25,050 nt of DNA, from positions 1 to 25,050 of the IMG/VR virus record IMGVR_UViG_3300010430_002724; one strand, written 5' to 3'. The notes under the pieces are model-generated. The model was given only the letters and a program-made list of their open reading frames with translations. It made no database searches and was not told where the DNA came from. Each line of letters opens with the position of its first letter. The stretch's first letter is position 1. Shown here piece by piece: positions 1 to 23,420 of this stretch. The stretch comes from a virus. The position numbers and the translations under genes were made by a program.

Positions 1-42
1 AGAAGGGCAAGACTCCCACCGAAAGGTGCTGGTCGGCGTGAT

Positions 43-2207: not shown

Positions 2208-3738
2208 GCCTCCGCCCGGTTACGATGCGGCCATGGTCCAACAGCGCGCGGTGAAGGTTCTGCCCGGACGAGGTCGCGTGACCGCGCATATCAACGAGAG
2301 CGCCGCTGCTCTCCGTCAGGCGCAGGACTTCCGCCGCGACTCCGAGGACACCGGCCTCGACATCTGGCAGGGCCGCCAGCTCGGAAGCAACGCATCTCTC
2401 GAGCGGGACATGACGCCGATGGAGCGCTTGCGCGCGATCCGGCTCTCGCGTACCAACTACAAGCGGAGTGGCGTCTACGGACAGATCCTCGACAAGATCG
2501 TGGACTTCACGCTTGGCGACGGGATCGCCATCGAGGGCTTCGAAAGCCCGTCCGTCGAGAGGCACGTTCGCCGCTTCCTTGAGAACCCGCTGAACGCATG
2601 GGACCGCAAGCTGAAGGATCGGTGGCGGGCCTGCCTCACCGATGGCGAGCTGGTCCTGAACGTCATGACGGACCGCCGCAACCCCGGTGAGATCGGTCGC
2701 CCTGTTCCGACCGGGCTGGTCCGCCTCGGCCGCTACGAGCCCGACCAGATCGTGGACGTCTCGGTCAGCAAGCACAATCAGGACCGCATCGTGGACCTGA
2801 CGCTTGAGATCGAGCTGAGCAAAAAGAAGTTCCCGATTGCAGAGCCGGGTCGGATGCCCACCGAGAACGAGACTGTGGTCGACGGCAAGGTGGTCAAGGA
2901 CGGGACCATGAGCGCCCTGTCCTACTGGGCCGTGAATCAGCTCGGCGTCCGGGGCCTGCCGTACCTCTCGCGATCCATCGACAAGGCCACCATGCTCGAT
3001 GAGCTGGTCGAGGCCCTGTCGCGCAAGGCGGAGTACACCAACCGCTTCTGGGTCCATGGCGTCTACGACCCCACCGGGGACGACTCCAAGGACAAGGCGT
3101 TCGAAGAGAAGCTCCTCGGGTTCCTGACGTCCGCCCTGCCGGGTGAGGCGCAGGTCACGAGCAAGGACGTCGAGATCAAGGTGCTCGCGCCTGACCTCAA
3201 GATGCCGGACCATGCCAGCCTCTACGAGCTGGTCCTCGACTACATCCTCGGAAGTCACGGCATCCCGCGAATGTGGTTCAGCTCCGGAGGGGACACGAAC
3301 CGCGCGACCGCCGTTGAGCAGGGGACCCCGATCCACCGCTCGCTGCTCTCGCTTCAAGAGGAGCTACGCTGCAACATCGAGGACTTGATCCTCTACGTGG
3401 TCTGGCTCGGCAAGGAGTCCGGCCGGATCCCGATTGACGCACCGACAGGCTTCTCGGTGGTGATGTCCCAGACAGCTACGAGGGACACCCTCCGGGACGT
3501 CGACGAGATGATGCGCCTCAGCACCATGCTGACGGAGGCGGTCGTGAGTGGGAAGCTGCACCCCGGCGAGGCGCAGACGGCTTTCCGCAACGCCTTCGCC
3601 GCCAAGACACAGTGGGAGATCGACTTGGAAGAGGAGCCGCCGGATCCGTCCGCGATGGCTACTATCGCTCCGGTCATTCCCGCGTTAGAATCCCGTCTGC
3701 CGGGTCACCGGCGCCAACGCCGCGGAGAAACCGAATGA
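2197..3738 (+). CDS. Portal protein
   Basis: The portal forms the dodecameric ring at the packaging vertex through which DNA enters and leaves the head. The call rests on position directly after the large terminase, length (513 residues), and portal-like segments: a GDGI stretch near residue 106, and GSHGIPRMWFSSGG with TAVEQGTP near 352-375, followed by a long helical region. The C-terminus is acidic (EEEPPD). Two starts are possible. ATG 2197 overlaps the terminase by 11 bases and lacks a Shine-Dalgarno sequence. ATG 2233 lies six bases after TACGAT, a pattern shared with other genes here, and may be the real one. The stop overlaps the next gene as ATGA. Confidence 0.88.
   Translation: MASEPPPGYDAAMVQQRAVKVLPGRGRVTAHINESAAALRQAQDFRRDSEDTGLDIWQGRQLGSNASLERDMTPMERLRAIRLSRTNYKRSGVYGQILDKIVDFTLGDGIAIEGFESPSVERHVRRFLENPLNAWDRKLKDRWRACLTDGELVLNVMTDRRNPGEIGRPVPTGLVRLGRYEPDQIVDVSVSKHNQDRIVDLTLEIELSKKKFPIAEPGRMPTENETVVDGKVVKDGTMSALSYWAVNQLGVRGLPYLSRSIDKATMLDELVEALSRKAEYTNRFWVHGVYDPTGDDSKDKAFEEKLLGFLTSALPGEAQVTSKDVEIKVLAPDLKMPDHASLYELVLDYILGSHGIPRMWFSSGGDTNRATAVEQGTPIHRSLLSLQEELRCNIEDLILYVVWLGKESGRIPIDAPTGFSVVMSQTATRDTLRDVDEMMRLSTMLTEAVVSGKLHPGEAQTAFRNAFAAKTQWEIDLEEEPPDPSAMATIAPVIPALESRLPGHRRQRRGETE
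2221..2232 (+). promoter_or_regulatory. Candidate leaderless promoter before an internal portal ATG
   Basis: TACGAT (2221-2226) is followed by six bases, gcggcc, and then ATG at 2233. The spacing and spacer resemble the elements before 10491 and 12885. If used, transcription would start at or next to the ATG and the portal would begin with MVQQRAVK, 12 residues shorter than from 2197. No good -35 hexamer is visible and the site lies in coding sequence, so this is an inference from the repeated pattern. Confidence 0.4.
3686..3691 (+). promoter_or_regulatory. Candidate -10 element at the portal 3' end
   Basis: TAGAAT followed by cccgtc resembles the TACAAT-ccggtc and TATAAT-ccggcc elements before 10491 and 12885. 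Here no start codon follows at six bases. The next gene begins at 3735 and has a GGAG Shine-Dalgarno at about 3724-3727, so a transcript from here would carry a leader of roughly 35-40 bases. No convincing -35 is seen. Confidence 0.35.
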
Positions 3739-4163
3739 AGCTCGTCGCTCGCAAGGTCCTCATCATCCCGTTCAACCACGAACCCAAGACCCTTGTGGAG
3801 GACTCCGCTCTGGGCTGGTGGCTCGCCATGAGCCAGCGTCACGGCGTGGAGCGATGCCGCGAAACGGACACGGGCGCTTGCGCCGTCCTCGTGGCGCACC
3901 CCGACCCGATGGAGGGCGACCCGCCCTACGTCACGCGATGGTTCCGGGCTCTCCCGAACCACAAGATCGAGTGGGGCGAGAAGTACCGAGGTCACCGCAC
4001 GGTAGGCCTCTCGTGCCCTGAGGCGGACTTCAACCGCGACCGCGCCGCAGGCCTCCGCCGGAAGGCTCGCGAGGGTCGGTGGACACCTGAGGAGGCTGAG
4101 CGCCGGATCGCGCGAGGCCCCAACCGCTCGCCGGTTAAGCTGCCGAGCACGGAGGCTGAGTAA
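3735..4163 (+). CDS. Hypothetical protein after the portal
   Basis: I do not recognise this 142-residue product. It is predicted soluble, with a hydrophobic N-terminal strand (VLIIPF), a Trp-rich segment (LGWWLAMSQRHG), three cysteines spread through the chain and a basic C-terminal third with a helical EEAERRIARG stretch. It has neither a signal peptide nor a membrane span. The start was set at ATG 3735 because it forms an ATGA overlap with the portal stop and has GGAG seven bases upstream. The longer in-frame start at 3612 would overlap the portal by over 100 bases with shadow-like sequence. Its place suggests a head or portal accessory role, but that is only context. Confidence 0.75.
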   Translation: MKLVARKVLIIPFNHEPKTLVEDSALGWWLAMSQRHGVERCRETDTGACAVLVAHPDPMEGDPPYVTRWFRALPNHKIEWGEKYRGHRTVGLSCPEADFNRDRAAGLRRKAREGRWTPEEAERRIARGPNRSPVKLPSTEAE

Positions 4164-4600
4164 TGGCTGTTGGTGCCTATGCCCAAGGAATCCTCTCCGC
4201 GCTGACGGACTGGCTCACCACCGCGGACCTGTACGCGGTTCTGGTGGATCAGGACTACACGCTCAACAAGGAGACGCACGACTTCCTGAACGACATCACC
4301 GACATCTACGGCGGGACGTCGAAACAGCAACTCGACTCGCAGGCGGTAGCGATCGACCTCGCGCTCGATCAGGTGGAGATCACCGCCGCCGCGGAGGTCT
4401 TCTCGGCCGTCGCGATTTCCGGCACGGATACGGTGGAGGCGGTCATCGTCTTCGACAACGCGCCGGCGACGGACGCCACTCGTCCCCTCGTGGCTCACGA
4501 CGATGGTGGATCCGGCTTTGGGCTGACGCCCAACGGGTCGAACATCACCTACACTCCGGACCCGACCAACGGCATCATCTACTACGACTACGGAGCCTGA
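4163..4600 (+). CDS. Small virion-type protein, possible surface or decoration protein
   Basis: The 145-residue product starts with a helical segment and continues as beta-rich sequence. The pattern YAVLVDQDYTLNKETHDFLN and, later, TVEAVIVFDNAP followed by PLVAHDD recalls a widespread family of small phage virion proteins (KVALVDxxYTFxxxHxFLxDV ... VEAlVLY), usually annotated as hypothetical. The resemblance is from memory and was not searched. ATG 4163 overlaps the preceding TAA by one base, with GGAGG about seven bases upstream. It opens the surface-protein block that runs to 9081. Exact virion location is unknown. Confidence 0.7.
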   Translation: MAVGAYAQGILSALTDWLTTADLYAVLVDQDYTLNKETHDFLNDITDIYGGTSKQQLDSQAVAIDLALDQVEITAAAEVFSAVAISGTDTVEAVIVFDNAPATDATRPLVAHDDGGSGFGLTPNGSNITYTPDPTNGIIYYDYGA

Positions 4601-4604
4601 TCGA

Positions 4605-4958
4605 ATGGCACACGCAATTATCACGGGCGCTCGACGCGGCGATGCGGGCACGGCCCTCAGCGTCGGCATCATCTACGCCATCCCGGTTGCCGACCGGGTT
4701 GCCAACGCGGTCCACACCGCGTCGAGCGACCTCGCGGAGCCCGTCGCGTCCATCGCGACCGTCGCCGAAAAGGACGCGCTCGACGCCGGCGAGGCCGTCT
4801 ACTTCACGAGGTCGATGGTGATCCCGCTCGGGATGTCCCTTGCCGATGCACGCACGAACGTCGAGCGCAAAGCTCCGGATTGGGCCGCGAAGGTCATCGG
4901 CGACTACAAAAAGAAGTACCTGCTGTACGGCAAGGACTTCACGTTCACGGAGGCGTAA
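4605..4958 (+). CDS. Hypothetical protein in the surface-protein block
   Basis: This 117-residue protein is not recognised. Its N-terminal half is rich in Ala, Val and small residues (GARRGDAGTALSVGIIYAIP), and its C-terminal half has a helical, basic region (WAAKVIGDYKKKYLLYGKDF). It has neither a cleavable signal peptide nor a cysteine. It begins four bases after the previous stop, with GGAG about nine bases before the ATG. Tight packing with the genes on both sides implies co-translation with virion proteins. Confidence 0.7.
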   Translation: MAHAIITGARRGDAGTALSVGIIYAIPVADRVANAVHTASSDLAEPVASIATVAEKDALDAGEAVYFTRSMVIPLGMSLADARTNVERKAPDWAAKVIGDYKKKYLLYGKDFTFTEA

Positions 4959-4961
4959 CGG

Positions 4962-5336
4962 ATGGGCTGGACTACTCTCCCCACCTCGCAGACCAAGGCT
5001 GCGCAGGACGATACCGAGGCGTACTTCGATGCAGTAGCCCTCAACCCCGGCGAGATCTCACACGTTCGGATCACGGGGGACAACAACGACGCGACTCCCA
5101 GCGATGATCTCGAAGTCAAGGTCTACGCCTGCCTTGAGGACTCGACCGAGGAGTGGGACACGATCCCCTTCATGACGTTCGTGATTGCGGCTGCGGACGC
5201 AGCGCAGAACGTCGACCAGCTCCTGTCGTTCCAAGTCAGCGGCGTCTACAAGTACCGCGTCGGTGTCGCCAGCTCCGGAGCGACCGACACTTGGGATGTC
5301 GAGCTGGACCACCGCGAAGACGGCGTCAACGCCTAA
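4962..5336 (+). CDS. Hypothetical beta-rich protein upstream of the LamG gene
   Basis: The 124-residue product alternates polar and hydrophobic residues (DLEVKVYACLED, YKYRVGVASSGATD) in a way that suggests a beta-sandwich, and is acidic overall. The family is not recognised. It starts three bases after the previous stop, with GGAGG eight bases upstream of the ATG. Its TAA stop (5334-5336) touches the left arm of a hairpin covering the start of the next gene, so its translation may open that gene. A small adaptor or decoration role for the LamG-like proteins is possible but unproven. Confidence 0.7.
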   Translation: MGWTTLPTSQTKAAQDDTEAYFDAVALNPGEISHVRITGDNNDATPSDDLEVKVYACLEDSTEEWDTIPFMTFVIAAADAAQNVDQLLSFQVSGVYKYRVGVASSGATDTWDVELDHREDGVNA

Positions 5337-5350
5337 CGGGGACTCCCCGT
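5336..5350 (+). promoter_or_regulatory. Perfect inverted repeat covering the LamG gene start
   Basis: ACGGGGA-C-TCCCCGT is a perfect 7+1+7 inverted repeat. As RNA it folds into a six-pair GC-rich stem with a three-base loop. It contains the only Shine-Dalgarno-like bases (GGGGA, 5338-5342) and the first two bases of the GTG start at 5349. It begins at the last base of the upstream TAA. Translational coupling, with a terminating ribosome melting the stem, is a plausible reading; a DNA operator is the alternative. Confidence 0.5.
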
Positions 5351-7040
5351 GGCGCTTTCGCTTCGTGACCCGTCCAACTCATCCGGCGTCGGTATGCGCG
5401 CCGGGAGCGCGGCTACGGCCCCGTTCCAACAATGGCCGATTTCCATGTTCACATGGGCACGCACGTTGGAGACGTCGTCGTTCGGATCACAGGCGGTCAT
5501 GTGGATCGGTCGCGCCGCCGCGACAAACGAGTTTTGCGCCATCCGATTTCAAAACAGCGGAAACATCCGGGCGACCGTTACGTCATGGGGGGGCACCGGA
5601 ATTGCGGCGGAGATCCCGGGAGGGTGGAACGTCGGCGAATGGTATCCAATCCTCGCCATTTACGAGGAGCAACGGGTCGAGGTTTACACCGTGATAAACG
5701 GTCGTGTGGTCACGGCGTTCGCCACGGACAGCGGCACCCGGGACAATTCATCGTTCGGCCGCATCGCCGTGGGTTACAACGCCGACTCTTCCCCCAACGC
5801 GCACTTCCGCGGGGACGCCGCACATATGTCGATGTGGAATCGACGATTGACCCCCAGCGAAATTCATGGCCTGCTACAAGGCGACGTCCCGAACGAGTGG
5901 CACCCCGGGGGCTTGGAGTTCTACCACTCCGGGATGTCGCCGGGACGACCCATCGGATCAGGGGGGTATAACGACCCGCACCCGAATCATTTCCTCGGTC
6001 AGCCTATGACCGTCATGGAAGGCGGGTTGACAACCACGAGCCCGACACCCGGGCACATCTACGACGATTCCTCGGAGCCTCCGGGGATGATTTATCGGAG
6101 CAAGCAGCCCCGACAGCGCCGCCGCGTCTGGACGACGGGCATCGCGAAGCCGACGAGCGACGGCAAGTACCCCAACAAGAGCACGGTCCTGCCGGTCAAG
6201 GTCGTGGAGACGATCCCGCACCGCTCGCCTGTTGCCAACACTCGGATCAAGCCCGCGCAGATCGCTCTCTCAATCAGCGACGTTGCCCCCGAGTGGCGTT
6301 GGTTCTGGCGCAAGCTGTCGTTCTTTGTTCTCCCGTCGCACAGAGGCGGGGAGACGCCGCGCATCCACTACGTCAATGGGGTGTACCCCGACACGGACGG
6401 GAAGGCCCTCCCGCTCACCAGCTACGGTTCGGGAGCATGGAAGGAGAACAAGACTGGTCGGGCTTGGGACAATGTCGGCGTTAGTGGCCTGCTGGCGCGC
6501 AACGATGCCTATGCCGCCTCCGGCCCGAACATGAACGAGGACGGAATCACGGTGGGGTTCCTAGGGGTTTCGCCTCACGACGGCGGGATGTGCTTGACTG
6601 AGTTCCGATACACATCTGGCGACTACAACTTCGGCCTCTACCGTTCAGGTACTTCGCTTCAATATCTCTACTATGACACCGGCGTTAGTGTGGGGGGAGG
6701 GCTTACGGTTCCCGACGACCGCGCCTACCAGATCGTTGCTGCGGAATCCGCCGAAACGCGATTCATGGTTGGCGAGGACTATGCAACGGGATCGGGGATC
6801 ACGTTGGTAAACGAGGGGGCAGGCGTAGTCATCGGCGTCCTCTGCCGATGGAACAATGGAGAGAACATTCGTTTTGAGTGTGACAACGGCGACGTAGAAC
6901 TTGCGTGGGCCTGCAACGCCGCACTGACCAAGCAGGAAATGCAGAGGGTTCGTGACGCGGGGTTCGCGCCGTTCGCGAAGGCGCAGCCCCGCCGCTTCAT
7001 CCGTGAGCGCCGCTTCTCCAAGAGGATGCCGAGGCGATGA
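5349..7040 (+). CDS. Large virion protein with two LamG/concanavalin-like domains
   Basis: This is a probable carbohydrate- or receptor-binding virion protein of 563 residues. The first jelly-roll-like unit spans about 1-200 and ends with the LamG-type signature MSMWNRRLTPSEIHGLL. A Pro/Arg-rich linker (about 235-300) leads to a second unit ending in a similar helix (NAALTKQEMQRVRDAGF, near 530). The C-terminus is strongly basic (RRFIRERRFSKRMPRR). It uses a GTG start inside the hairpin at 5336-5350; no better start is visible. The base composition looks more mixed and less GC-rich than in neighbouring genes, which would fit horizontal exchange. No catalytic motif is recognised. Head fibre, tail fibre or spike are all possible; the position after the portal leans towards a head-attached role. 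Confidence 0.7.
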   Translation: MALSLRDPSNSSGVGMRAGSAATAPFQQWPISMFTWARTLETSSFGSQAVMWIGRAAATNEFCAIRFQNSGNIRATVTSWGGTGIAAEIPGGWNVGEWYPILAIYEEQRVEVYTVINGRVVTAFATDSGTRDNSSFGRIAVGYNADSSPNAHFRGDAAHMSMWNRRLTPSEIHGLLQGDVPNEWHPGGLEFYHSGMSPGRPIGSGGYNDPHPNHFLGQPMTVMEGGLTTTSPTPGHIYDDSSEPPGMIYRSKQPRQRRRVWTTGIAKPTSDGKYPNKSTVLPVKVVETIPHRSPVANTRIKPAQIALSISDVAPEWRWFWRKLSFFVLPSHRGGETPRIHYVNGVYPDTDGKALPLTSYGSGAWKENKTGRAWDNVGVSGLLARNDAYAASGPNMNEDGITVGFLGVSPHDGGMCLTEFRYTSGDYNFGLYRSGTSLQYLYYDTGVSVGGGLTVPDDRAYQIVAAESAETRFMVGEDYATGSGITLVNEGAGVVIGVLCRWNNGENIRFECDNGDVELAWACNAALTKQEMQRVRDAGFAPFAKAQPRRFIRERRFSKRMPRR

Positions 7041-8686
7041 GCCGCATCTTGATGCCCTCGCGCTATGCGCGCACGAGGTCAGACAGCCCGCGCAACAAGC
7101 GGTGGATTTGGGACGATCTGACGGCGTACTATCCGTTCTTTGCGTTCCCTCCGCAGGACGGGGTTTGTCCGAATCTCGCGGACCAGCGCACCGACAAGGT
7201 CGAGATCGTTACCGCGTCCGGCTTCCCGGCGAAGGTCGTGACGCGCATAGGGCAGGGTTGGGAGACGAACAGTTTCGACCCGGAGGTAAACCTAAAGCAC
7301 GACGCGCCTCCGAGTGAAGCGACAATCCTCTGGCTTGGCGAGATCCTGACGGCCCCGAATGAGGGCGCCGGGACGACGCTCTATTCCCGCTCGCACCCGA
7401 CGCTGACTAACCGCTATATCTCCGTTCAGTACCGGGGAACGTCCTACGGCGTTTCCGGCGAGCAGGGAATGGCCTGTGTAACGAGGAACAACGGCAACCA
7501 GTACAGCGCAGCCTACGGCCCAAACACCGGCTCCAAGATAGGCCTCCATTGCGTCGTAGGCTCCACCGAGAGCGAGGGTGGAGAATCGTCCGGCGTCTCG
7601 TGGAACGGGAAGCCCGCGCAGATCGTCGGCACGGACGGTATTGCCGACGGAACCCTCTCCCTCGCGTCGGTCGGATATTTCGACTACGCGGGAAACGCCT
7701 ACTACCACAACACCGGGCTGGCTCATCTCGTCGTCATGGAGTGGGGCAACATCGTCCACTTCAAAAAGACTCCGTTACTCTCGAACCCGGATTGGCTCGT
7801 CGATGCGATCACGCGACCCGTTCGCCTCGGTTGGGTCCGCACGCTGGAGCCGGTGTCCGAGGAAGTCACGGGACCGCAGGGGCTCACCGGCGTCGGCTCA
7901 CTCGTCACGGTTGCGGCCGGTGCTGGCTCGCTATCGGGGACCGGGTCGGCCGGGCTCACGGGCTCTGGTTCTCCCGTCACCGTCGCCGCAGGATCGGGTA
8001 CGGCATCGACCGGCGGACAGTTCCTCACCGGCTCCGGGTCACCCGTCACGGTCGGCGCGGGCGCCGGGACCTTGAACGGAACCGGATCAGCCCCCCTCGC
8101 CGGTCAGGGCTCGGCGGTAGCGGTAGCCGCGGGCGCGGGGTCGCTTGATGGGACCGGGACCGCCAGCCTCGCGGGCGCGGGGTCACCCGTCACGGTAACC
8201 GCTGGCGCGGGAGGGCTCGCAGCCGGTGGCGCTTCGCTGGCCGGGGCGGGCTCCCCTGTCAACGTCGCTGCTGGCGCCGGAGGACTGGCCGCAACAGGCT
8301 CCGCCTCGCTACAGGGCTCAGGAGCCCCGGTGAGCGTCGAGGCCGGTCTGGGGGCGCTGGTGGGCTCAGGTGGCGTGGCCCTCCCGGGCTCAGGATCCGG
8401 GGTCACCGTAGGCGCGGGCGCGGGCGGTCTTGCCGCGGGCGGGGTCAGTCTGGTCGGGGCCGGTGCTCTGGTGCAGGTCGCCGGCGGATCCGGAGCGCTC
8501 ACCGGGACAGGGAACGCGAACCTTTCAGGTCAGGGCGCCCTCGTGACCGTCGCGGTCGGGAGAGGCGGAATCTCGGGAGGGGACGTCCTCTCCTACGCGA
8601 CCCACCGCCTCCTCGGCGTGGTCCGGCTCGTAGAGCTCCGAGGCATCACCGGCCGCTCCACGATAACTGGTAAGGTGACGTCGTGA
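7037..8686 (+). CDS. LamG-like virion protein with ten C-terminal 24-residue repeats
   Basis: The 549-residue product has three parts. Residues 1-280 resemble a concanavalin/LamG-type sandwich (AHLVVMEWGNIVHFKKTPLL near 233-252). Residues 282-517 form ten back-to-back repeats of 23 or 24 residues, consensus xLxGxGSPVTVAAGAGxLxG, with almost no charged residues. Residues 518-549 form a different, basic tail (HRLLGVVRLVELRG). The repeat period and V-T-V core suggest a stacked beta or extended fibrous stalk. ATG 7037 overlaps the previous stop as ATGA, and GAGG lies two bases upstream. It is probably a partner or paralogue of the preceding LamG protein. No enzymatic motif is seen. Confidence 0.7.
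   Translation: MSRILMPSRYARTRSDSPRNKRWIWDDLTAYYPFFAFPPQDGVCPNLADQRTDKVEIVTASGFPAKVVTRIGQGWETNSFDPEVNLKHDAPPSEATILWLGEILTAPNEGAGTTLYSRSHPTLTNRYISVQYRGTSYGVSGEQGMACVTRNNGNQYSAAYGPNTGSKIGLHCVVGSTESEGGESSGVSWNGKPAQIVGTDGIADGTLSLASVGYFDYAGNAYYHNTGLAHLVVMEWGNIVHFKKTPLLSNPDWLVDAITRPVRLGWVRTLEPVSEEVTGPQGLTGVGSLVTVAAGAGSLSGTGSAGLTGSGSPVTVAAGSGTASTGGQFLTGSGSPVTVGAGAGTLNGTGSAPLAGQGSAVAVAAGAGSLDGTGTASLAGAGSPVTVTAGAGGLAAGGASLAGAGSPVNVAAGAGGLAATGSASLQGSGAPVSVEAGLGALVGSGGVALPGSGSGVTVGAGAGGLAAGGVSLVGAGALVQVAGGSGALTGTGNANLSGQGALVTVAVGRGGISGGDVLSYATHRLLGVVRLVELRGITGRSTITGKVTS
7880..8587 (+). repeat. Ten in-frame 69/72-bp tandem repeats
   Basis: Within the preceding gene, ten units encode 24, 23, 24, 24, 23, 24, 24, 23, 24 and 23 residues (236 in all) with no interruptions. 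Each unit starts with a residue followed by L-x-G and contains a V-x-V core followed by G-x-G. The DNA copies have diverged at third positions, so this is an old repeat held by protein constraint more than a fresh duplication. The bias also creates a Pro/Ala-rich open frame on the opposite strand at 8104-8502, which is not a gene. Confidence 0.85.
8671..8682 (+). promoter_or_regulatory. Candidate leaderless promoter before GTG 8683
   Basis: TAAGGT (8671-8676) plus six bases, gacgtc, places GTG at 8683 in the same geometry as the elements before 2233, 10491 and 12885. TAAGGT is the weakest match to a TAnnnT -10 element in the set and lies in the coding end of the repeat protein. AAGG could instead act as a Shine-Dalgarno with seven bases of spacing, so both readings remain open. 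Confidence 0.35.
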
Positions 8687-9081
8687 GCCCCACCGGACCC
8701 AAGGACTATGACGAGCCGATCCCCGTCTTCATCGGGGAGAGCTGGAAACCCGAGATCACCGTCAGGGATGGAGTCCGCACCTCGGCCCTGCCTGACGGCG
8801 CGACAGTGGACATCTCCTCAGCGAACCGCGACGTCCTCCTGACCATCTACAAGCCGGACGGCTCTGCGAACTACGTTCGCTCCCTCGTGGACGACGGGAC
8901 CAAGACGGACGCGCCGAACGGCAAGGGGGAGTTCGCGGTCGCAGACACCGTGACGGCCCTGTGGGGCGAGGGCGTCTACGCTTGGGAGATGGAGTATCAG
9001 GACTCGACGCCGACGCCTGAGACGAAGCTGCTGATCGCGACGGGCACCATCGTCGTGCGGAAGAAGCCGAGTGCCTCGTAG
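8683..9081 (+). CDS. Small beta-rich protein closing the surface-protein block
   Basis: The 132-residue product looks like a single Ig-like or baseplate-type beta-sandwich: alternating strands (KPEITVRDG, VLLTIYKPDGS, YAWEMEYQDS, LLIATGTIVVRKK) with polar turns. No known family is assigned with confidence; it recalls the small sandwich domains of tail-fibre or upper-baseplate proteins. GTG 8683 overlaps the upstream stop as GTGA and has either AAGG or the TAAGGT element before it. The last 11 bases overlap the Mu gpF-like gene. A structural accessory role is inferred from context only. Confidence 0.72.
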   Translation: MSPTGPKDYDEPIPVFIGESWKPEITVRDGVRTSALPDGATVDISSANRDVLLTIYKPDGSANYVRSLVDDGTKTDAPNGKGEFAVADTVTALWGEGVYAWEMEYQDSTPTPETKLLIATGTIVVRKKPSAS

Positions 9082-9970
9082 TGACCTTGGCCGCTACGAA
9101 ACCAAGGCCCTCCATGGGGTGCTCAACACCCTCAAGCGCTCACGCGCGGACCTGATCGACCTGCTCACGAAGGGCGTGGATCCTTCGGGCAAGACGCCCT
9201 CGGACTTCGATAGCTTCTTCGCCGCCGAGCGGGCGGACGCCATCAACCGCGAGATGGACGCCGTGACGGACGAGCTGCTACGCCGCGTCGACAATGAACT
9301 CGCGGGCATCGCGCAGGTAGGCGTCGAGGACTTCAACCGTTCAGCGCGATCCGCCTCCACTCGGATGCCCACCGTTGGCGTGGACGCAAACACCGTCGCG
9401 TTGGTGCAGGAGATCGCAGGCGCGAAGATCGCGCAGGTCACCGCGGTCATGAAGGCCGACGTCCGAATCGCCATCTCTCGAGCTGTCTCCGGAGGGCTCA
9501 CGATCCCGCAGCTACAGGCGGAGATCAAGACCATCATGGGGGGCGAGCGCACCGCAGCCCAGATCGAGCGCATCATTCGGAATGAGATCGGGACCGCCTA
9601 CTCGCAGGCGCAGGCCGCCGCGAACGATGAGCTGATTGACGCGGGCGCCGAGGAGGACCTCATCAAGGTCTGGCGGACGACCGGGGACGGGCGCTCTCGG
9701 CCGGAGCACCGAGACATCCATGGTCAAGAGCGGGAGCTTTCCGACCTGTTCAACATGGGCAACCACAAGGCCGGAATCGTCATCACGTTTGAGGACGGTC
9801 CGTCGCGCAAGGGCCACCGGATCAACGGCCCCCAAGACCCTACCCTCCCGATCCACCTTGCCATACAATGCCGCTGCACGGTGTCGTGGGTCCCTCGATC
9901 CAAGGCCCGACAGAGCTACATCACGAAGGACCCGAAGAAAGCGCGCAAGAAGGAGGCACTGACGCCATGA
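9071..9970 (+). CDS. Mu gpF / SPP1 gp7-like minor head protein
   Basis: This is a head morphogenesis protein; members of the family bind the portal and are packaged in a few copies. The 299-residue product has a helical N-terminal two-thirds and the family C-terminal signature: YSQAQ near 177-181, KVWRTTGDGRSRPEHRDIHG at about 199-218, and P-x-H followed by CRCT at 267-270. The paired Cys, His and Arg residues are well conserved. The start is GTG 9071, inside the end of the previous gene, with GGAAGAAG upstream. The C-terminus is Lys/Arg-rich. In most phages this gene is next to the portal; here about 5.3 kb separates them. The family call is firm, the detailed function less so. Confidence 0.85.
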   Translation: MPRSDLGRYETKALHGVLNTLKRSRADLIDLLTKGVDPSGKTPSDFDSFFAAERADAINREMDAVTDELLRRVDNELAGIAQVGVEDFNRSARSASTRMPTVGVDANTVALVQEIAGAKIAQVTAVMKADVRIAISRAVSGGLTIPQLQAEIKTIMGGERTAAQIERIIRNEIGTAYSQAQAAANDELIDAGAEEDLIKVWRTTGDGRSRPEHRDIHGQERELSDLFNMGNHKAGIVITFEDGPSRKGHRINGPQDPTLPIHLAIQCRCTVSWVPRSKARQSYITKDPKKARKKEALTP

Positions 9971-10452
9971 TCACCCTGTTTGCTGGCCCGAAGAACAAGG
10001 GCATCCACAAGCTGCTGTTCGTCCCTGCCGGGGACTCTCTCGATTCGACGGCCCGTCATGGGTGCGTCATCGAGGGACCGGCCATCGTCTACGATGTGTT
10101 CAGCCCCATCAAGGACCCCGACCCGACCGGAGCCCGCTTCAAGCACGAGCTGGAGTCGTCGGCCGTCCACTACGGCGTCACCGAGGCCATGGGCGACGAT
10201 TCGATCCCGGACGAGTGCAAGGACGCTCTCCTGAATGCGGAGGGCGTGCCCGGGCTCAATGAATTCCTCGCCAAGGTGCAGGACGCCCCGGGGGCGGACG
10301 AGGGCCTCACGCCGCAGGAGAAGGGCGCCATCACGAAGCGGAAGAACGCGATCCGGAAGGATCTGGAGACCGCTGACGGGTGGGACGCGCTCTCCGAAGA
10401 GGAGCAGGCCGCGGCCGTCGACGACGAGTACGCGACCCAGACGGGCGACTAG
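9967..10452 (+). CDS. Hypothetical protein before the protease-capsid gene
   Basis: This 161-residue, acidic protein is not recognised. Its N-terminal half is beta-like (HKLLFVPAGD, GPAIVYDVFSPI), and its C-terminal part is helical with a Lys-rich then Glu-rich stretch (KGAITKRKNAIRKDLE, EEEQAAAVDDEYA). ATG 9967 was chosen because it gives an ATGA overlap with the previous gene and has AAGGAGG about 11 bases upstream. The earlier in-frame ATG at 9868 lies deep inside the Mu gpF-like gene and encodes shadow-like sequence. Location between two head genes suggests a head assembly role. Confidence 0.75.
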   Translation: MITLFAGPKNKGIHKLLFVPAGDSLDSTARHGCVIEGPAIVYDVFSPIKDPDPTGARFKHELESSAVHYGVTEAMGDDSIPDECKDALLNAEGVPGLNEFLAKVQDAPGADEGLTPQEKGAITKRKNAIRKDLETADGWDALSEEEQAAAVDDEYATQTGD

Positions 10453-10456
10453 GCCC

Positions 10457-10490
10457 TTGCGGGCGGATGCGATCCAGCTACAATCCGGTC
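10457..10490 (+). promoter_or_regulatory. Probable leaderless promoter of the protease-capsid gene
   Basis: TTGCGG (10457-10462) and TACAAT (10479-10484) are separated by 16 bases and could serve as -35 and -10. The six bases ccggtc then lead straight to ATG 10491. No Shine-Dalgarno sequence is present just before that ATG. The 19 bases TACAATCCGGTCATGTCGG match the element before 12885 at 16 positions. Transcription would start at or just before the ATG. Confidence 0.55.
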
Positions 10491-12815
10491 ATGTCGGTAC
10501 TGCTGGGTCGCATCCTTCGAACCGTGGAGTCTGGACCGAAGCGCCACGTTCGCGAAGTGGTGCTGATCGAGGCCGGATGGAGCTTGAACGGAGGCTTCTA
10601 CCCCGCGGCGACCCTGATCGCAGCCGTCCAAGAGGGGCTCTTTGAGCGCCGACCGGCGATGCTGCTGGAGCGGGTCACGGCAGACGGAAGCGTCGCCGAC
10701 CACCAGACCGAGGATGACCTTGTAGGCAAGGAAGTCCTCAACCAAGTGGGGTTCTACGAGAGCGCGCGATGGGACCCCGATGTGGGCGAGCGCGGTGCAG
10801 TCGTGGCGAACCTCGTGGTGCTGGAGTCCGAGGACGAGGACCATGTCTCGCAACGGTTCCTCTCCCACCTGAAGGCCCTTGAGGAGTCGGAGGGGATGGA
10901 CACCATCGGCCTCTCCATCAACGGCCTCGGTTCCGAGCCCACCTCGGACGGCCGGATCGACCAGATTGACGAGATTTTCTCTGTGGACATTGTGACGCAA
11001 CCTGCCGCTGGCGGTAAGATCGGCCATCGTGTAGCCGCGTCGGTGTCTCGACCCAAGCGGGATAGGAGCCCCAAACCCATGAAACTGCTGGCCGCGCTTC
11101 GCGCAATGTTCCCCGTGCTCATGTCGGGCCTCCGCCTGACAGAGAGCGACAGCGAGGGCGTCATCCTCAAGACGCTCATCCGCCGAATCAAGGAGTCCGA
11201 GGAGGCCGCCAAGGAGGCCGGCGAGCACCTCGATGAAGATCCCGCCGAGCTGCGGGAGATGGACGCGACGGAGCTGCTGGATCAGGCCATGCAGATCCTT
11301 GCCGCGGCCAAGGAGCAGATCGGAGGCGTCGCCGGAGGCGACACCGAGGAGCCCGTCGAGGAGGCGGACGGAGACGAGGAAGAGGAACTCTCCGACGAAG
11401 AGAAGAAGAAGATCAAGAAGGCCCTCAGCGAGAGCGAGCGCAACGCCGCCGCCGCTGCCGCCTCCGCCAAGTCCGCCAAGGCGTCCGAGAGGAAGGCCCT
11501 TCTCCGGGAAAGCCGCCTGCTGCTCAAGGATCAGATCACGAGCCAGAAGCTGCCGACCGCGGTCGGGACGCGGATGCTCAAGGCCTACGATAAGGCGCCG
11601 GTCATCCTCACTGAGTCCGCCGCCAAGTCGCTCGTGAAGGAGCAGGTCGAGATCATCGACGAAGTGCTGCAGACGCGCGGCGCCTCCGACCTGACGGTTC
11701 TCCGCGAGGCGCGGGACAATCAGGGCGACATCCTCGCCTATATGTTCCACGACGGCGTCGACGTCAGCAACGAGGTCAAGACCATGGCGCAGAAGGAACT
11801 CGGCATGAGTTTCTCACGCTTCATGGAGGCGTTCCTCGGCGTGGACATCCGCGATGCCGTCCGAGGCCACGGCCACCGGATGCGGATGCGCGAGGCCATC
11901 AACGACACCAACTTCGATCAGGTGTTCGCGGACGTCATGAACCGCGCGGTGCTCGCTGAGTACGGCGGACTGACGAAGTACAACTTCGACCGAATCGTCT
12001 CCTACGAGAGCTTCAACGACTTCCGCAGCCGGAAGCTCGTGACGCTGGGCTACTACGGCAACCTGCCGACCGTAGCCAAGGGAGGCTCGTATGTGGCCCT
12101 GACCACGCCGACCGACCGTCAGGAAACCATCGCGCTCGCCAAGAAGGGCGGAACCGAGAGCATCCTCATGGAGGACGTCCTCAATGACGACCTCGGGCTC
12201 TATCAGGCGATGGTGAAGCGGATCGGCCGCGCCGCCAAGGAGACGGCCTACGCGACCGTCATGAGCCTGATCCGCAAGGCCTCCCAGCCGACGATGGCGG
12301 ACGGCGACAAGCTCACCGACCTGACCCGTTCCCCGGCGAACGAGCTGACGGTCGCGCTGTCGAAGGACGCCGCGGGCAAGACGGCGTTCATCAACGCGGT
12401 CATCCAGATGATGTCGCAGACCGGAGGCTCCGGCGAGAAGAAGGGCGTCACGCCGTCCACGATCATCCTGCCGTTGCAGTTGGTCGAGGCGTGGTCGTAC
12501 ATTCGCAAGGAGCTGGTCGGCGGCCTGACGGGCGTCGAGGTCCGCGAGACGATGGAGCAGCTCGGCGCGGTCATCCCGGAGTTGATGATCGACCTCGGGA
12601 CCACCAACGCGACGGATTGGTTCCTCCACTCCAACGAGGTCAAGAACCTCGTCTTCGCGACCTTGGGCGGCCGACGCGAGCCGGAGATCTTCCTCGCCGA
12701 CGACGAGCGGTTCGGGAATATGTTCACCAAGGATCAGCTCGACCTGAAGGTCCGCTTCATCTACGCCGCTGCCGCTGCCGACTTTGTCGGGGTGCAGGGC
12801 AACGACGTCGCCTAA
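10491..12815 (+). CDS. Prohead protease - scaffold - major capsid fusion protein
   Basis: One 774-residue frame carries three parts. Residues 1-185 resemble a prohead maturation serine protease: H71 in ADHQTE, S142 in IGLSING and a SVDIVTQPAAGG segment at 164-175 match the herpes/T4-like protease pattern. Residues 215-345 are charged, helical and partly acidic (EEEELSDEEKKKIKKAL), like a scaffold or delta domain. Residues about 460-774 resemble a Mu gpT-type HK97-fold capsid subunit. The protease would cut itself and the scaffold away during maturation. ATG 10491 is preferred over 10380, which overlaps the previous gene; it sits six bases after TACAAT. An internal ATG at 11079 may yield scaffold-capsid alone. 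Confidence 0.82.
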   Translation: MSVLLGRILRTVESGPKRHVREVVLIEAGWSLNGGFYPAATLIAAVQEGLFERRPAMLLERVTADGSVADHQTEDDLVGKEVLNQVGFYESARWDPDVGERGAVVANLVVLESEDEDHVSQRFLSHLKALEESEGMDTIGLSINGLGSEPTSDGRIDQIDEIFSVDIVTQPAAGGKIGHRVAASVSRPKRDRSPKPMKLLAALRAMFPVLMSGLRLTESDSEGVILKTLIRRIKESEEAAKEAGEHLDEDPAELREMDATELLDQAMQILAAAKEQIGGVAGGDTEEPVEEADGDEEEELSDEEKKKIKKALSESERNAAAAAASAKSAKASERKALLRESRLLLKDQITSQKLPTAVGTRMLKAYDKAPVILTESAAKSLVKEQVEIIDEVLQTRGASDLTVLREARDNQGDILAYMFHDGVDVSNEVKTMAQKELGMSFSRFMEAFLGVDIRDAVRGHGHRMRMREAINDTNFDQVFADVMNRAVLAEYGGLTKYNFDRIVSYESFNDFRSRKLVTLGYYGNLPTVAKGGSYVALTTPTDRQETIALAKKGGTESILMEDVLNDDLGLYQAMVKRIGRAAKETAYATVMSLIRKASQPTMADGDKLTDLTRSPANELTVALSKDAAGKTAFINAVIQMMSQTGGSGEKKGVTPSTIILPLQLVEAWSYIRKELVGGLTGVEVRETMEQLGAVIPELMIDLGTTNATDWFLHSNEVKNLVFATLGGRREPEIFLADDERFGNMFTKDQLDLKVRFIYAAAAADFVGVQGNDVA
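11015..11078 (+). promoter_or_regulatory. Candidate internal promoter and ribosome binding site
   Basis: Inside the fusion gene, TAAGAT (11015-11020) is followed by cggcca, close to the ccggcc spacer seen elsewhere. Further on, AGGAG (11064-11068) lies ten bases before the in-frame ATG at 11079, in the linker between the protease and scaffold parts. Together they could drive separate production of the scaffold-capsid portion. The Shine-Dalgarno is the stronger half; the -10 is a weak inference. Confidence 0.4.
11079..12815 (+). CDS. Nested scaffold-capsid product from an internal start (predicted)
   Basis: ATG 11079, codon 197 of the fusion, begins MKLLAALRAMFPVL and would make a 578-residue scaffold-capsid precursor lacking the protease. 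It has AGGAG ten bases upstream and falls in the non-conserved linker (SRPKRDRSPKP) after the protease motif. A nested scaffold start is known in lambda, where Nu3 lies inside gene C. The logic is similar: hundreds of capsid copies are needed but few protease copies. This is a prediction from sequence; a single fused product cut after assembly is the alternative. Confidence 0.45.
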   Translation: MKLLAALRAMFPVLMSGLRLTESDSEGVILKTLIRRIKESEEAAKEAGEHLDEDPAELREMDATELLDQAMQILAAAKEQIGGVAGGDTEEPVEEADGDEEEELSDEEKKKIKKALSESERNAAAAAASAKSAKASERKALLRESRLLLKDQITSQKLPTAVGTRMLKAYDKAPVILTESAAKSLVKEQVEIIDEVLQTRGASDLTVLREARDNQGDILAYMFHDGVDVSNEVKTMAQKELGMSFSRFMEAFLGVDIRDAVRGHGHRMRMREAINDTNFDQVFADVMNRAVLAEYGGLTKYNFDRIVSYESFNDFRSRKLVTLGYYGNLPTVAKGGSYVALTTPTDRQETIALAKKGGTESILMEDVLNDDLGLYQAMVKRIGRAAKETAYATVMSLIRKASQPTMADGDKLTDLTRSPANELTVALSKDAAGKTAFINAVIQMMSQTGGSGEKKGVTPSTIILPLQLVEAWSYIRKELVGGLTGVEVRETMEQLGAVIPELMIDLGTTNATDWFLHSNEVKNLVFATLGGRREPEIFLADDERFGNMFTKDQLDLKVRFIYAAAAADFVGVQGNDVA

Positions 12816-12840
12816 GACCTTCCCTGACCATCAAGAAACG

Positions 12841-12868
12841 GGGCGCCTCTCGCATAGGGAGGCGCCTC
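12841..12868 (+). terminator. Terminator-like hairpin after the capsid gene
   Basis: GGCGCCTCTC (12842-12851) pairs with GGGAGGCGCC (12857-12866), with one G-U pair and a five-base loop, gcata. The stem sits in the only non-coding gap between the capsid and connector genes. The following bases, tcgcctt, form a poor U-tract, so termination may be partial, or the stem may protect the 3' end of capsid mRNA. It directly precedes the TATAAT element at 12873. Confidence 0.6.
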
Positions 12869-12872
12869 GCCT

Positions 12873-12884
12873 TATAATCCGGCC
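12873..12884 (+). promoter_or_regulatory. Probable leaderless promoter of the connector gene
   Basis: A perfect TATAAT (12873-12878), six bases ccggcc and then ATG 12885. No Shine-Dalgarno is close to the ATG; the nearest GGAGG belongs to the hairpin stem 20 or more bases upstream. No clear -35 hexamer is found at 16-18 bases. The extended match to the element before 10491 supports a functional site. Confidence 0.6.
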
Positions 12885-13592
12885 ATGTCGCGACGGCCCC
12901 CCTTCACCGCCCTCTCGCAATACGCCGAAGCCCTGAAGGGACTGGTCCCCGACGCGCGGGGCAAGATCATCGACGCGGACGTCATCGAGGACGCGCTCAA
13001 GGTCTACAACGAGCAGCATCCCGCGGTAGAGACGCAGGACATCGGTGACGGCTCCCAGTTCGAATGGCCGATGGGCTCGGCCCCCTTCACGCGATGGGAT
13101 GAGGGCTTCTCGGAGAACTACCCCGTCAAGGTGGAGGAACTCACAGCCGGCGAGCCTCAGCGGCCGCAGGTATGGCTCACCGAGGATCGATCCTTCTGGT
13201 TTGAGCGCAGGTACGTCTCGGGCGTCCTGACCCGCGTGCTCGTGTTCAACGACATCCCTTCGGTCGATGAGGTTCGCGTCCACTTTTCTCGACGCCACCT
13301 ACTCGATAACGCAGGGGTCAGCGAGGTCCCCGAGCACCACCAGATGGCCGTGGTCTGGGAGGCCGCCTCGCTCAAGTGCCAGATGCTCGCGCAGGTCTAC
13401 CGCTCCTCGGTCGACCATGGGCTCGGCGCTCTCGCCGGGGGAGTGGACGAGAAGGCGGACGCCTACGAGCGTGACGCCGCGAAGTGGCACAAGCGGTTCT
13501 CCAACACCCTCGGAGTGGGACGCCGCTCGCAGGTCACGACGGGTCAAATCCGCACCGGGACCTCGCGCGTCTTCCGTCGCGGCTATGCCTAA
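12885..13592 (+). CDS. Probable head-tail connector protein
   Basis: The 235-residue product lies directly after the capsid gene, where siphoviruses encode the adaptor that docks on the portal. It has a helical N-terminus (FTALSQYAEALKGLVPDARG), a beta-rich middle with many aromatic residues (FEWPMG, WFERRYVSG), and a helical C-terminal part (MAVVWEAASLKCQMLAQVYR) in keeping with adaptor folds, ending in a basic tail (RVFRRGYA). The start at ATG 12885 follows the TATAAT-N6 element. It overlaps the next gene by eight bases. The call is from position and secondary-structure pattern; no signature motif is diagnostic. Confidence 0.55.
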   Translation: MSRRPPFTALSQYAEALKGLVPDARGKIIDADVIEDALKVYNEQHPAVETQDIGDGSQFEWPMGSAPFTRWDEGFSENYPVKVEELTAGEPQRPQVWLTEDRSFWFERRYVSGVLTRVLVFNDIPSVDEVRVHFSRRHLLDNAGVSEVPEHHQMAVVWEAASLKCQMLAQVYRSSVDHGLGALAGGVDEKADAYERDAAKWHKRFSNTLGVGRRSQVTTGQIRTGTSRVFRRGYA

Positions 13593-14187
13593 GAGCCAAG
13601 TCCGGGTCATCCAGATCCCGACGATGCTCACCGAAAAGGGGAGCAAGGACGTCTACCTGAAGGCCGCGGACAACGGGCTTCGCGAGATCGGGGCGGTCGG
13701 CTCGTCCAAGGTGCAGGACCGGATCCGGGGCACCACCGACTCGCGTGGCTACAAGGGCCGCGTCGACAAGGCCCTCATGGTCAAGAGCATCACCGCAGGT
13801 CGCCCGCGACGGTCCGGCGAACGAGTCACTCAGGAGACGTTCAGCCAACCGCCTGCCTCCCAGTGGACTATCGTGAACGAGCTCGGACGTCGGCCCGGGA
13901 AGAAGCCTCCGCCGCCCAAGGTCATCGAGTCGTGGCTGAAGCGTACCCAGAAGGGCCGCAGCTTCTTGATGCGCGTAAAGGCGGACCTGCAGAAGGCCCG
14001 TCGCAAAGTCCCCTCAGACGCCATCCTCGCGGCCCGCATGGCATTCATCGTCGCGCGGTCGATCGGTCGTAAAGGCGTGCCCGGGATCTTCATGTTCAGG
14101 CGGACAGCCGAGGAGCTTCGCCAAGGCCTGTCGGCCAAGATCTTCGCTAAGCACCTGAACCGCCTCACCAAGGGAGGCAAGGCGTGA
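13585..14187 (+). CDS. HK97 gp10-like neck or tail completion protein (probable)
   Basis: The 200-residue basic protein shows WTIVNELGRRPGKKPPPPKV at about 93-112, and a later helix followed by IVARSIGRKGVPGIFMF. This arrangement is typical of gp10-like neck/tail-completion proteins, in which an A-R-x-I-x-x-x-G-x-P-G pattern precedes a short C-terminal helix. The order connector, gp10-like, terminator, tube fits. ATG 13585 overlaps the connector gene by eight bases and lacks a strong Shine-Dalgarno; the upstream in-frame ATG at 13267 would give over 100 residues of shadow-like sequence. The GTG of the next gene overlaps its stop. Confidence 0.6.
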   Translation: MPKSQVRVIQIPTMLTEKGSKDVYLKAADNGLREIGAVGSSKVQDRIRGTTDSRGYKGRVDKALMVKSITAGRPRRSGERVTQETFSQPPASQWTIVNELGRRPGKKPPPPKVIESWLKRTQKGRSFLMRVKADLQKARRKVPSDAILAARMAFIVARSIGRKGVPGIFMFRRTAEELRQGLSAKIFAKHLNRLTKGGKA

Positions 14188-14636
14188 GCCTCGCGACGTC
14201 GGTAGCCCGCATCGCCTCGATCCTTGAGGCCGTGGCCGGAGTGTTCAATGTGAACGTCGGCCCGCTCATCACGAGGGACCGGCTGGAGGCCGAGGGCGAG
14301 CAGTTCATCGGCCAGCACCTTCGGAGCTGGGTGATCCAGTACGTCATCCAAGTGGGCCACCTCGGCGTTCAGGCGTCCGCTCATACGGAGCTGGACGTCA
14401 CCGTCATTGCTCGCCACGAGGTGCAGGAGGGGCGGGAGCAGGAGACGTACACCGAGTTCTCGGCGCTGCTCGAGGAAGCCGCGCAAGCGCTCATCGTCGA
14501 AGGCTCCGGGATGCCCGCAATCGACGAAGCGGGAGTTACGATAGACTTCACCTCGGAGCCGCAGATCACCGACACGGGTCACCTCTGCTGGGAGGCCCAA
14601 CTCCGGTTCCACTTGCTCGATGTGACCAGCTCATAG
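14184..14636 (+). CDS. Probable tail terminator protein
   Basis: The 150-residue product sits between the gp10-like and tail-tube genes, the usual place for the protein that caps the tube and joins it to the head. It begins with a helix (SVARIASILEAVAGVF), followed by beta segments (AHTELDVTVIARHEV) and a helix (FSALLEEAAQALIV), ending in a strand (CWEAQLRFHLLDV). That order and length fit gpU/gp17-type terminators. GTG 14184 overlaps the previous TGA as GTGA with GGGAGG upstream. The sequence itself has no signature I can name. Confidence 0.5.
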   Translation: MSLATSVARIASILEAVAGVFNVNVGPLITRDRLEAEGEQFIGQHLRSWVIQYVIQVGHLGVQASAHTELDVTVIARHEVQEGREQETYTEFSALLEEAAQALIVEGSGMPAIDEAGVTIDFTSEPQITDTGHLCWEAQLRFHLLDVTSS

Positions 14637-14645
14637 GAGAATCCA

Positions 14646-21223: not shown

Positions 21224-22716
21224 TGCTGATCCCCGTCGAGCTGTCTTGGTCGGTCCGCGTCCACGAGAACCAGCGCAAGGACTACCGGGTCTACGCGAGC
21301 AAGTCCCCTGAGACGCTCGGTACGTTGATCGGGACTCCCACCGCGCCCCGGATCGAGTTTGAGATCGAAGAAGGGTCGTGGTACTTCCGCGTCGTCCGGA
21401 GCTATCGGAACGGCTCTGTCGAGGACTGGCGAAACGCAGCCGTGACCGCGGAGATGAACGTCGCGCGAGACGCGACCGCTCCGACCACGCCGAACAATGC
21501 GGTCGTGTCCCAAGTGGAGCCCGGTAACCAGTCGCGGATCAAGGTGGACGACCTGCCTTCGGACGACCCGGACGCGACCACCGAGGTCATCCAAGGCTCC
21601 TCTCCCGAGCAGGGCCAGCTCATCGGCCACCAACCCGCCCGGTACGACGCCGCGGACGAAAACCACTCGCCCGGAGGGGCGCCGGGACCTGACGTCCTCC
21701 TCTACGGCTCCGGGGCGCCCCATGGCGCCGGAACGGACCGTCGGGTATGGGTCCGGAACCGTAGCCAGTCGGGAGCCCCCAGCGCAGCCTCAGCGCCTCA
21801 GAGCGTGCCCTTCTTCGACCGGCCCAATCACGGTCGCGTGACGATCATGGACCTGAACGCCGGAGTGCTGACGCATATCACAGCCCCGGCCCTCACGGAC
21901 CCGTGGGAGATGCCGGGGTCTGAGATCCAGCTCAAGGAGATCCCGGCCGCGAATGCGCTGCTCGCGGCGAACGGTTGGGGCTCTGCAGACGCGGGGCTGT
22001 TCGCGGAGACCCCGGCCGGTGCGGAGTTCCTGACGTCCGGGCTGGTCGAGTCCGACGAGAAGGACCTCGCAGCCATCTTGACCTTCAAGCTGGAGTTCTA
22101 CGACGACACCGAGCGCCGGTCAGCCACGACCAAGACGATGCCCGCTACGTCATGGTCGCGCTTCCCGGTGAACGCCGCGGGGGTGACCCGCCTCGTGGGC
22201 TCGCCCCTCGGGCCGGAGTGGTATCTCACCGAATACACTCAGGAGTGCAAGCCCAAGCGGCCCCTCACCGGGGTCAAGTGGTTCGTCAAGTACGGCGACT
22301 CGTCGCCTATCTCGATGGACTATCGGCAGGCCTTCCCGGGCGAGCGGATCAAAGCCCGGTACGTTCAAACCGCCCTGCTCATGGCGGACCCGATGGGCAA
22401 GCACCAACTCAAGGCGTCGCGCATCTCGGCGGAGGCCGTCTTTGAGTACGCTCACGACGGCGGGACCGAGACGGTCGCGGGAGGCATCTCGACCAAGATC
22501 GTGCAGACCCGCTCGGATCCGGTGACGGGGCTCGCCAGCCTGTTCACGAACAAGCTCATTCCGGTCACTCAGGAAACGAACGCCGTCGCCTACTGGACAA
22601 GGGTGATCGCGGTGAACCCGGCTCTCGGGCAGTTCACGGTTCAGGCCATGACCGCCACCGGAGCGGATTATTTGGCTGGCCCTTGGGGCTTTCATTGGCA
22701 GGCGTTAGGATTCTAG
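21223..22716 (+). CDS. Tail tip or fibre protein with N-terminal FN3-like domain
   Basis: The 497-residue product begins with a fibronectin III-like unit (about 1-95; YRVYASKS, WYFRVVRSYRNG, EDWRNAAVTA). A variable Pro/Gly/Ser-rich linker follows (about 125-205), then beta-rich domains with many aromatic residues (AILTFKLEFYDD, GVKWFVKYGDSS). ATG 21223 overlaps the gpJ-like stop as TAATG, with AAGGG upstream. It probably extends the gpJ-like tip and may contain the receptor-binding part; this pair could be a split form of one long gpJ. No cleavage or chaperone domain is visible. Confidence 0.6.
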   Translation: MLIPVELSWSVRVHENQRKDYRVYASKSPETLGTLIGTPTAPRIEFEIEEGSWYFRVVRSYRNGSVEDWRNAAVTAEMNVARDATAPTTPNNAVVSQVEPGNQSRIKVDDLPSDDPDATTEVIQGSSPEQGQLIGHQPARYDAADENHSPGGAPGPDVLLYGSGAPHGAGTDRRVWVRNRSQSGAPSAASAPQSVPFFDRPNHGRVTIMDLNAGVLTHITAPALTDPWEMPGSEIQLKEIPAANALLAANGWGSADAGLFAETPAGAEFLTSGLVESDEKDLAAILTFKLEFYDDTERRSATTKTMPATSWSRFPVNAAGVTRLVGSPLGPEWYLTEYTQECKPKRPLTGVKWFVKYGDSSPISMDYRQAFPGERIKARYVQTALLMADPMGKHQLKASRISAEAVFEYAHDGGTETVAGGISTKIVQTRSDPVTGLASLFTNKLIPVTQETNAVAYWTRVIAVNPALGQFTVQAMTATGADYLAGPWGFHWQALGF

Positions 22717-22726
22717 AGGAGCACCC

Positions 22727-23407
22727 ATGTCACAAGACTGGCACAATTCAAGCGTAGATCAGCCTGTCGGCGGCGAGGATGGCTGGGTCTGGCTGGAGCG
22801 GCTCAAGAAGGGCGTCAACGCGAGCCGGACCATGTACCGCGGATCGGGTGACCCGAGCAGCGGAGCCTCACCCGCTTGGGGCGCGACGGAGCTCGGCGTC
22901 CTCTGGCTCGATGATAGCGACCCCATCCAGACGACGTGCTGGCAATGGTCGCAGCTCGACCTCGGCCCGACCTACGGTTGGCGCCTCACGCGGATCCCGA
23001 AGGTGAAGTGGCTGACGGCTCCGAGCGCATGGACGTTCAGCCCTGCCTCACCGGCCGCCGCTGACGTCGCGTGGACCGCGCAGGACTTGGCGAGCCAGCT
23101 CGACACTCTGCAGGACTCTCCGGCCGTCAATCACCTCGTGCTGGCCGTCTACGTGTCGATCAAGTTCCGCACCGGGGCCTCGGAGACCGTCCCCCTCACT
23201 GACGACTGCTACATCGCGTTCAGGACCACCGGAGGAACGAACGAGAACCGCTTCTACCCGCAGGTTCAAAACCGATTCATGCAACAGAAGTTCTGGCTTC
23301 CCCTCTCGACGCTCGAGAAGTTCGACTTCAAGGTTGAGGTCGGCGGCGGGACCCCGGCGTTTGAGTACGAGCTGGCCATCGAGGGGCTCATGGAGCTGGC
23401 CTTGTGA
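22727..23407 (+). CDS. Small tail-associated protein, function unknown
   Basis: This 226-residue protein is rich in Trp (WVWLERLKKG, TTCWQWSQLDLG, YGWRLTRIPKVKWL) and ends in a beta-sandwich-like region (KFRTGASETVPLTDDCYIAF, FDFKVEVGGG, YELAIEGLMELAL). I do not recognise a family. It is the last gene of the tail-tip run and has the best Shine-Dalgarno there, AGAGGAG about seven bases before ATG 22727, suggesting good expression. A small fibre or tip decoration protein is plausible. Confidence 0.7.
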   Translation: MSQDWHNSSVDQPVGGEDGWVWLERLKKGVNASRTMYRGSGDPSSGASPAWGATELGVLWLDDSDPIQTTCWQWSQLDLGPTYGWRLTRIPKVKWLTAPSAWTFSPASPAAADVAWTAQDLASQLDTLQDSPAVNHLVLAVYVSIKFRTGASETVPLTDDCYIAFRTTGGTNENRFYPQVQNRFMQQKFWLPLSTLEKFDFKVEVGGGTPAFEYELAIEGLMELAL

Positions 23408-23420
23408 TAGGCTGATCGCG

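Follow-up and report, generated by a model that had tools for sequence, protein, structure and literature searches.

The window analysed here is an entire IMG/VR virus contig (IMGVR_UViG_3300010430_002724; 25,050 bases, 65% GC) on which every assigned gene lies on the plus strand. Terminase genes are followed by a portal-like gene, a head morphogenesis gene, a gene for a prohead protease, scaffold and major capsid fusion protein (the capsid gene), connector-like genes and tail genes (Table 1). Hexamers of the form TAnnnT, resembling the -10 box of a bacterial promoter, were found six nucleotides (nt) upstream of several start codons in the head region. This module, and the leaderless messenger RNAs (mRNAs) that it would produce, are the subject of the present analysis.

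Table 1. Genes and candidate regulatory features of the window
Feature	Position	Strand	Remarks
Small terminase gene	43	+	
Large terminase gene	669	+	
-10-like TACGAT	2221..2226	+	6 nt upstream of portal-gene ATG 2233
Portal-like gene	2233..3738	+	No PHROG or Pfam match; named for its location between the terminase genes and the head morphogenesis genes
TAAGGT	8671..8676	+	Within Shine-Dalgarno (SD)-like stretch before GTG 8683; promoter role uncertain
Head morphogenesis gene	9071	+	
-35-like TTGCGG	10457..10462	+	16 nt upstream of TACAAT
Predicted -10 TACAAT	10479..10484	+	6 nt upstream of capsid-fusion ATG 10491
Prohead protease / scaffold / major capsid fusion gene	10491..12815	+	PHROG matches: head maturation protease, major head protein
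Internal SD TAGGAG and in-frame ATG 11079 (codon 197)	11063..11081	+	Candidate start of scaffold-capsid product without protease
Terminator-like hairpin, 13-base-pair (bp) stem, 5-nt loop	12839..12869	+	Downstream of capsid gene; -27.6 kcal/mol, z -4.3
Predicted -10 TATAAT	12873..12878	+	Directly after hairpin, 6 nt upstream of ATG 12885
Head-tail connector-like gene	12885..13592	+	Assigned by position; 38% identity to L088 orthologue
Tail-tube-like gene	14646	+	
Tape-measure-sized gene	16460	+	
Tail fibre J homologue	19049	+	
TAGGAT	22706..22711	+	15 nt upstream of ATG 22727, SD GAGGAG; candidate promoter with very short SD leader
TGATAGGCT	23405..23413	+	Gene 22727 stop codon with -10-like TAGGCT fused to it, upstream of SD-led GTG 23451

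The coding strand of the window holds few TAnnnT hexamers, 56 in 25 kb. One lay at position -12 in 4 of 28 assigned starts, and every other offset down to -60 held at most one. A sequence-only reading of the window had listed these four sites, and all were present as written: TACGAT-gcggcc-ATG (2221-2235), TAAGGT-gacgtc-GTG (8671-8685), TACAAT-ccggtc-ATG (10479-10493) and TATAAT-ccggcc-ATG (12873-12887). From the coding-strand density, 0.063 would be expected at the exact offset versus the four observed. The corresponding Poisson probabilities were 6 × 10−7 for four sites, 4 × 10−5 for three, and 0.002 for the two genes preceded by gaps alone. Random displacement of the starts by at most 60 nt never yielded as many as three in 20,000 trials. 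The bare pattern TAnnnT-N6-RTG (N6, any six bases; R, A or G) was only mildly enriched, with seven matches on both strands of the window against 3.2 expected in shuffles, a count reached in 3 of 100 shuffles. The hexamer and spacing had partly been picked post hoc, after inspection of the sequence. The -12 offset was not an arbitrary choice, because a promoter whose transcript starts at the initiation codon should have its hexamer there: TANNNT has been placed about 12 bp upstream of leaderless starts (PMC3160421).

The firm sites were those at 10479 and 12873, where the genes follow true gaps and begin with ATG. As the earlier reading had noted, neither has an SD: pairing energy was 0 at starts 10491 and 12885, and -5 to -12 at most other starts. 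Start 2233 of the portal-like gene gave an SD energy of -2.4 and was counted as lacking one. A possible alternative start, ATG 2197, overlaps the terminase stop codon and is likewise without an SD; 2233 was preferred. The site at 8671 reads TAAGGTGACGTCGTG, which can be parsed as TAAGGTGA-CGTC-GTG. Its AAGGTG is SD-like (-4.9 kcal/mol), and can act as an SD; the site is more likely part of an SD than a promoter and was not counted as one of the promoters. Of the four modules claimed initially, those at 10479 and 12873, and probably that at 2221, were thus retained, and that at 8671 is probably an SD.

Relatives taken from scans of viral contigs were used for comparison (L082, L083, L085, L087 and L088; about 35-48% protein identity). 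L088 belongs to the 29 kb record G006, which shares 36-46% protein identity with the window; the portal-like protein of the window is 46% identical to that of L083. L086 and relatives of the terminase were set aside as too distant, the latter for the comparison of upstream regions. On the coding strand of G006, 6 of just 18 TAnnnT hexamers sit 6-8 nt upstream of an ATG (two N6, one N7, three N8), and none at spacings of 3-5 or 9-12. Five of the six mark plausible gene starts and the sixth lies inside a gene. Three precede the orthologues of window genes 2233, 10491 and 12885, namely portal (TAGACT-N8), capsid (TAGGAT-N8) and connector (TAGGAT-N6, compared with TATAAT-N6 in the window). The others include TACGGT-N6 before a gene in the small-terminase position and TAGGAT-N7 before a further open reading frame (ORF). 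In L082 (4 kb), the sole coding-strand TAnnnT is TACGGT-N7-ATG, at the capsid start. A TAnnnT lies within 26 nt of the portal start in all four phages; in L083 and L087 it is TAGCCT and TAGTGT, respectively, about 20 nt upstream and followed by a short SD leader. The L083 gene at the position equivalent to 8683 is preceded by TAGCAT plus GGAGGG.

Across the coding strands of six contigs, TAnnnT-N(6-8)-ATG occurred 12 times versus 3.6 expected, and 300 dinucleotide shuffles gave at most 10. The spacing histogram held 6, 2 and 4 cases at N6, N7 and N8 and none at N4, N5, N9 or N10; on the opposite strand of these contigs it showed no peak. The scan of relatives for the hexamer at this spacing, suggested earlier as a check, was therefore positive, and the orthologues argue strongly for the module at 10479 and 12873. 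The spacer CCGGYC shared by three sites (TAYRATSCGGYC) was considered as a separate operator and rejected; it was treated as discriminator composition because the relatives keep nothing beyond GC-richness.

The capsid gene offered a second element. A search for TTGCGG-N(15-18)-T[A/T]nnnT gave a single match in each of three contigs (window, G006, L083); every match was at the capsid gene and had N16. By our own reading, L082 has TGGACG at N16 from its capsid hexamer. In L083 the downstream hexamer is TTCGAT-N7. The region just upstream of the L083 capsid start (10860-10925) also contains GGTTCGATCCC, which resembles the T-arm of a transfer RNA (tRNA); ARAGORN found no tRNA in that region.

Upstream of the connector gene, stems of 12-13 bp were found at the place equivalent to the window hairpin in L083, L085 and L088, and in the window and G006 only a few bases separate the stem from the TAnnnT that follows it. 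The arrangement reads as a putative terminator of the capsid transcript with a new promoter immediately after it. Because none of the capsid-connector hairpins has a proper U tract, termination here is an inference. The gap after the tail tube gene (15714-15790) is also hairpin-rich, with an 11-bp GC stem followed by CTTTGTCT, and probably holds a terminator.

From these comparisons we infer promoter role, 5′ end position and mode of translation alike: the modules are most likely real promoters giving leaderless mRNAs. We hold with good confidence that promoters of the host type (sigma-70/SigA), with a -10 box 6-8 nt before the start codon, lie at 10479 and 12873 and probably also at 2221. With the -10 box ending at this distance, transcription would begin at the start codon or no more than two bases from it. 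Transcription would re-initiate at three genes of the head module: portal, protease-capsid and, downstream of the putative hairpin terminator, connector. The SD-less messages would then be translated as leaderless mRNAs, through recognition of the 5′-terminal AUG.

Several observations weigh against this interpretation. The L083 capsid hexamer, TTCGAT, does not conform to TAnnnT, and we retain it only weakly as a -10 box. The portal genes of L083 and L087 are SD-led, and so are the connector orthologues of L083 and L085, which lack TAnnnT; leaderlessness is therefore not obligatory. The six-contig count of 12 was just moderately above the shuffle maximum, and the 28 start codons are our own, unproven assignments. 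A convincing -35 was seen at capsid promoters only, with none at 2221 or 12873. Unconvincing -35 elements are usual in TANNNT systems, and no conserved -35 was found for the leaderless promoters of Mycobacterium tuberculosis (PMC3898074). A strict scan of positions 1-16000 with the sigma-70 consensus of Escherichia coli passed no site; the promoter reading therefore rests on TAnnnT and on the comparison, not on that consensus.

Other explanations were weighed against leaderless promoters. The hexamers might be AT-rich, unstructured stretches that aid ribosome loading at non-SD starts of a long polycistronic message. The genes do form a co-directional cluster, and other bacteria are known to initiate without an SD where the start region is weakly structured. 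We nevertheless regard this as improbable: what is conserved is T1, A2 and T6 at a fixed distance rather than AT content, and the spacers are GC-rich (ccggtc, ccggcc, cccgtcc). Three phages have a TTGCGG with N16 between it and the hexamer, a hairpin lies upstream of the connector gene, and TAnnnT about 20 nt upstream of SD-led portal starts fits a promoter. Promoters were preferred to ribosome-loading elements because the promoter position stays whether the leader is absent or a minimal one with an SD.

Rather less probable still, the promoters may be real but with transcription start sites (TSSs) further downstream, or translation may begin at an inner ATG or GTG, giving short-leader mRNAs. 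Short-leader SD promoters do occur in the same phage family, at the portal orthologues of L083 and L087 and at window gene 22727, and an inner SD-led ATG is conserved in the capsid gene. Against this, it is the first ATG that yields the conserved N-terminus of the capsid fusion. That the four matches arose by chance, through post hoc selection and start-codon choice in a 25 kb window, is very unlikely and largely refuted by the relatives. In its favour, TAnnnT-N6-RTG is just 2-fold above shuffles in the window, 8671 is probably an SD and start 2233 has an alternative; against it, the module recurs at orthologous genes (36-46% protein identity) in contigs where TAnnnT is very rare.

The inner start of the capsid gene was compared across homologues. 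All four have an in-frame ATG at codon 187-197 with an upstream SD-like sequence, at codons 187-189 in the three relatives. The inner SD energies were -6.5 for TAGGAG in the window, -11.4 for GAGGGAGGC in L083, -6.4 in L082 and -5.6 in G006. In the alignment of the capsid homologues, the inner ATG sits at the junction of the protease-like and scaffold-like parts. This suggests, tentatively and as a proposal rather than a result, that one capsid transcript could carry two modes of initiation. Leaderless initiation at 10491 would give a limited amount of the protease-scaffold-capsid fusion, and SD-led initiation at 11079 the bulk of a protease-free scaffold-capsid product. The leaderless start might then be a device for prohead protease dosage, kept over wide sequence divergence.

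Further strings of this kind were seen elsewhere. Within 3686-3697, TAGAATCCCGTC, a fourth string similar to the three that share the CCGGYC spacer, is module-like and lies not at a start but 49 nt upstream of ATG 3735. It could be a promoter from which gene 3735 would receive a leader of about 37 nt, or a chance occurrence. The form TGATAGnnT, a TGA stop directly followed by TAGnnT, as at 23405 in the window, was also found in L083 at 3792-3800 and 5372-5380. This double stop can also be read as an extended -10 box, and the gene that follows is SD-led. Between the portal and head morphogenesis genes, the gene at 5349-7040 has a Laminin_G_3 (concanavalin A-like) domain, an unexpected location for a binding domain. 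The C-terminal part of gene 7037 (7900-8560) consists of Gly/Ser/Ala-rich repeat units resembling GSGSPVTVAAGAG, and L083 has a comparable repeat tail at the equivalent position (6909-9170).

Leaderless genes adjacent to a -10 box are known in actinobacteria and Deinococcus, as the sequence-only reading had stated. In M. tuberculosis, one quarter of genes with a primary TSS are leaderless, and their mapped promoters carry TANNNT 7-12 nt upstream of the TSS (PMC3898074). The sites described here would share that position, a TSS on the start codon, a weak or absent -35 and the lack of an SD. They differ in belonging to virion genes of an uncultivated phage and in that the capsid gene has a conserved TTGCGG resembling a -35; the mycobacterial promoters were mapped experimentally. 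In Deinococcus-Thermus, TANNNT directly before ORFs drives leaderless mRNA and is widely used (PMC12340547). There, as in the window, such ORFs coexist with ribosome-binding-site motifs at other genes, but they make up about 30% of ORFs of host chromosomes, compared with about 3 of 28 phage genes in the window.

The view that such modules would be unusual for a phage holds in part, as cluster O mycobacteriophages, Corndog among them, had already been predicted to carry leaderless promoters (PMC4351075). Those comprise the divergent intergenic promoters PR2 and PL1 and PL2 for a small leftward gene, whereas the window sites precede portal, capsid and connector genes. No sequence relation to cluster O was found when the terminase and capsid protein were compared with a phage collection, in which the terminase had no match and the capsid protein matched distant phages only. 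In cluster K mycobacteriophages, start-associated sequences (described in PMC11373665) are likewise short and repeated just upstream of start codons; unlike them, the window site replaces the SD and resembles a -10 box. The leaderless mode is thus already known; the window and its relatives add a conserved set of candidate cases at the portal, capsid and connector genes of an uncultivated phage family.

Leaderless translation is inefficient in E. coli. In M. tuberculosis, growth genes are depleted in leaderless genes (PMC3898074). Bacterial genomes were scanned twice for relatives of the capsid protein; neither scan returned one, and host assignment hence failed. If the interpretation is correct, leaderless translation would serve late virion genes in these phages, where it might determine how much protease fusion is made relative to capsid. 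The interpretation would also predict hosts that translate leaderless mRNA well, narrowing the search for them, and would provide a start-codon rule for annotating these phages.

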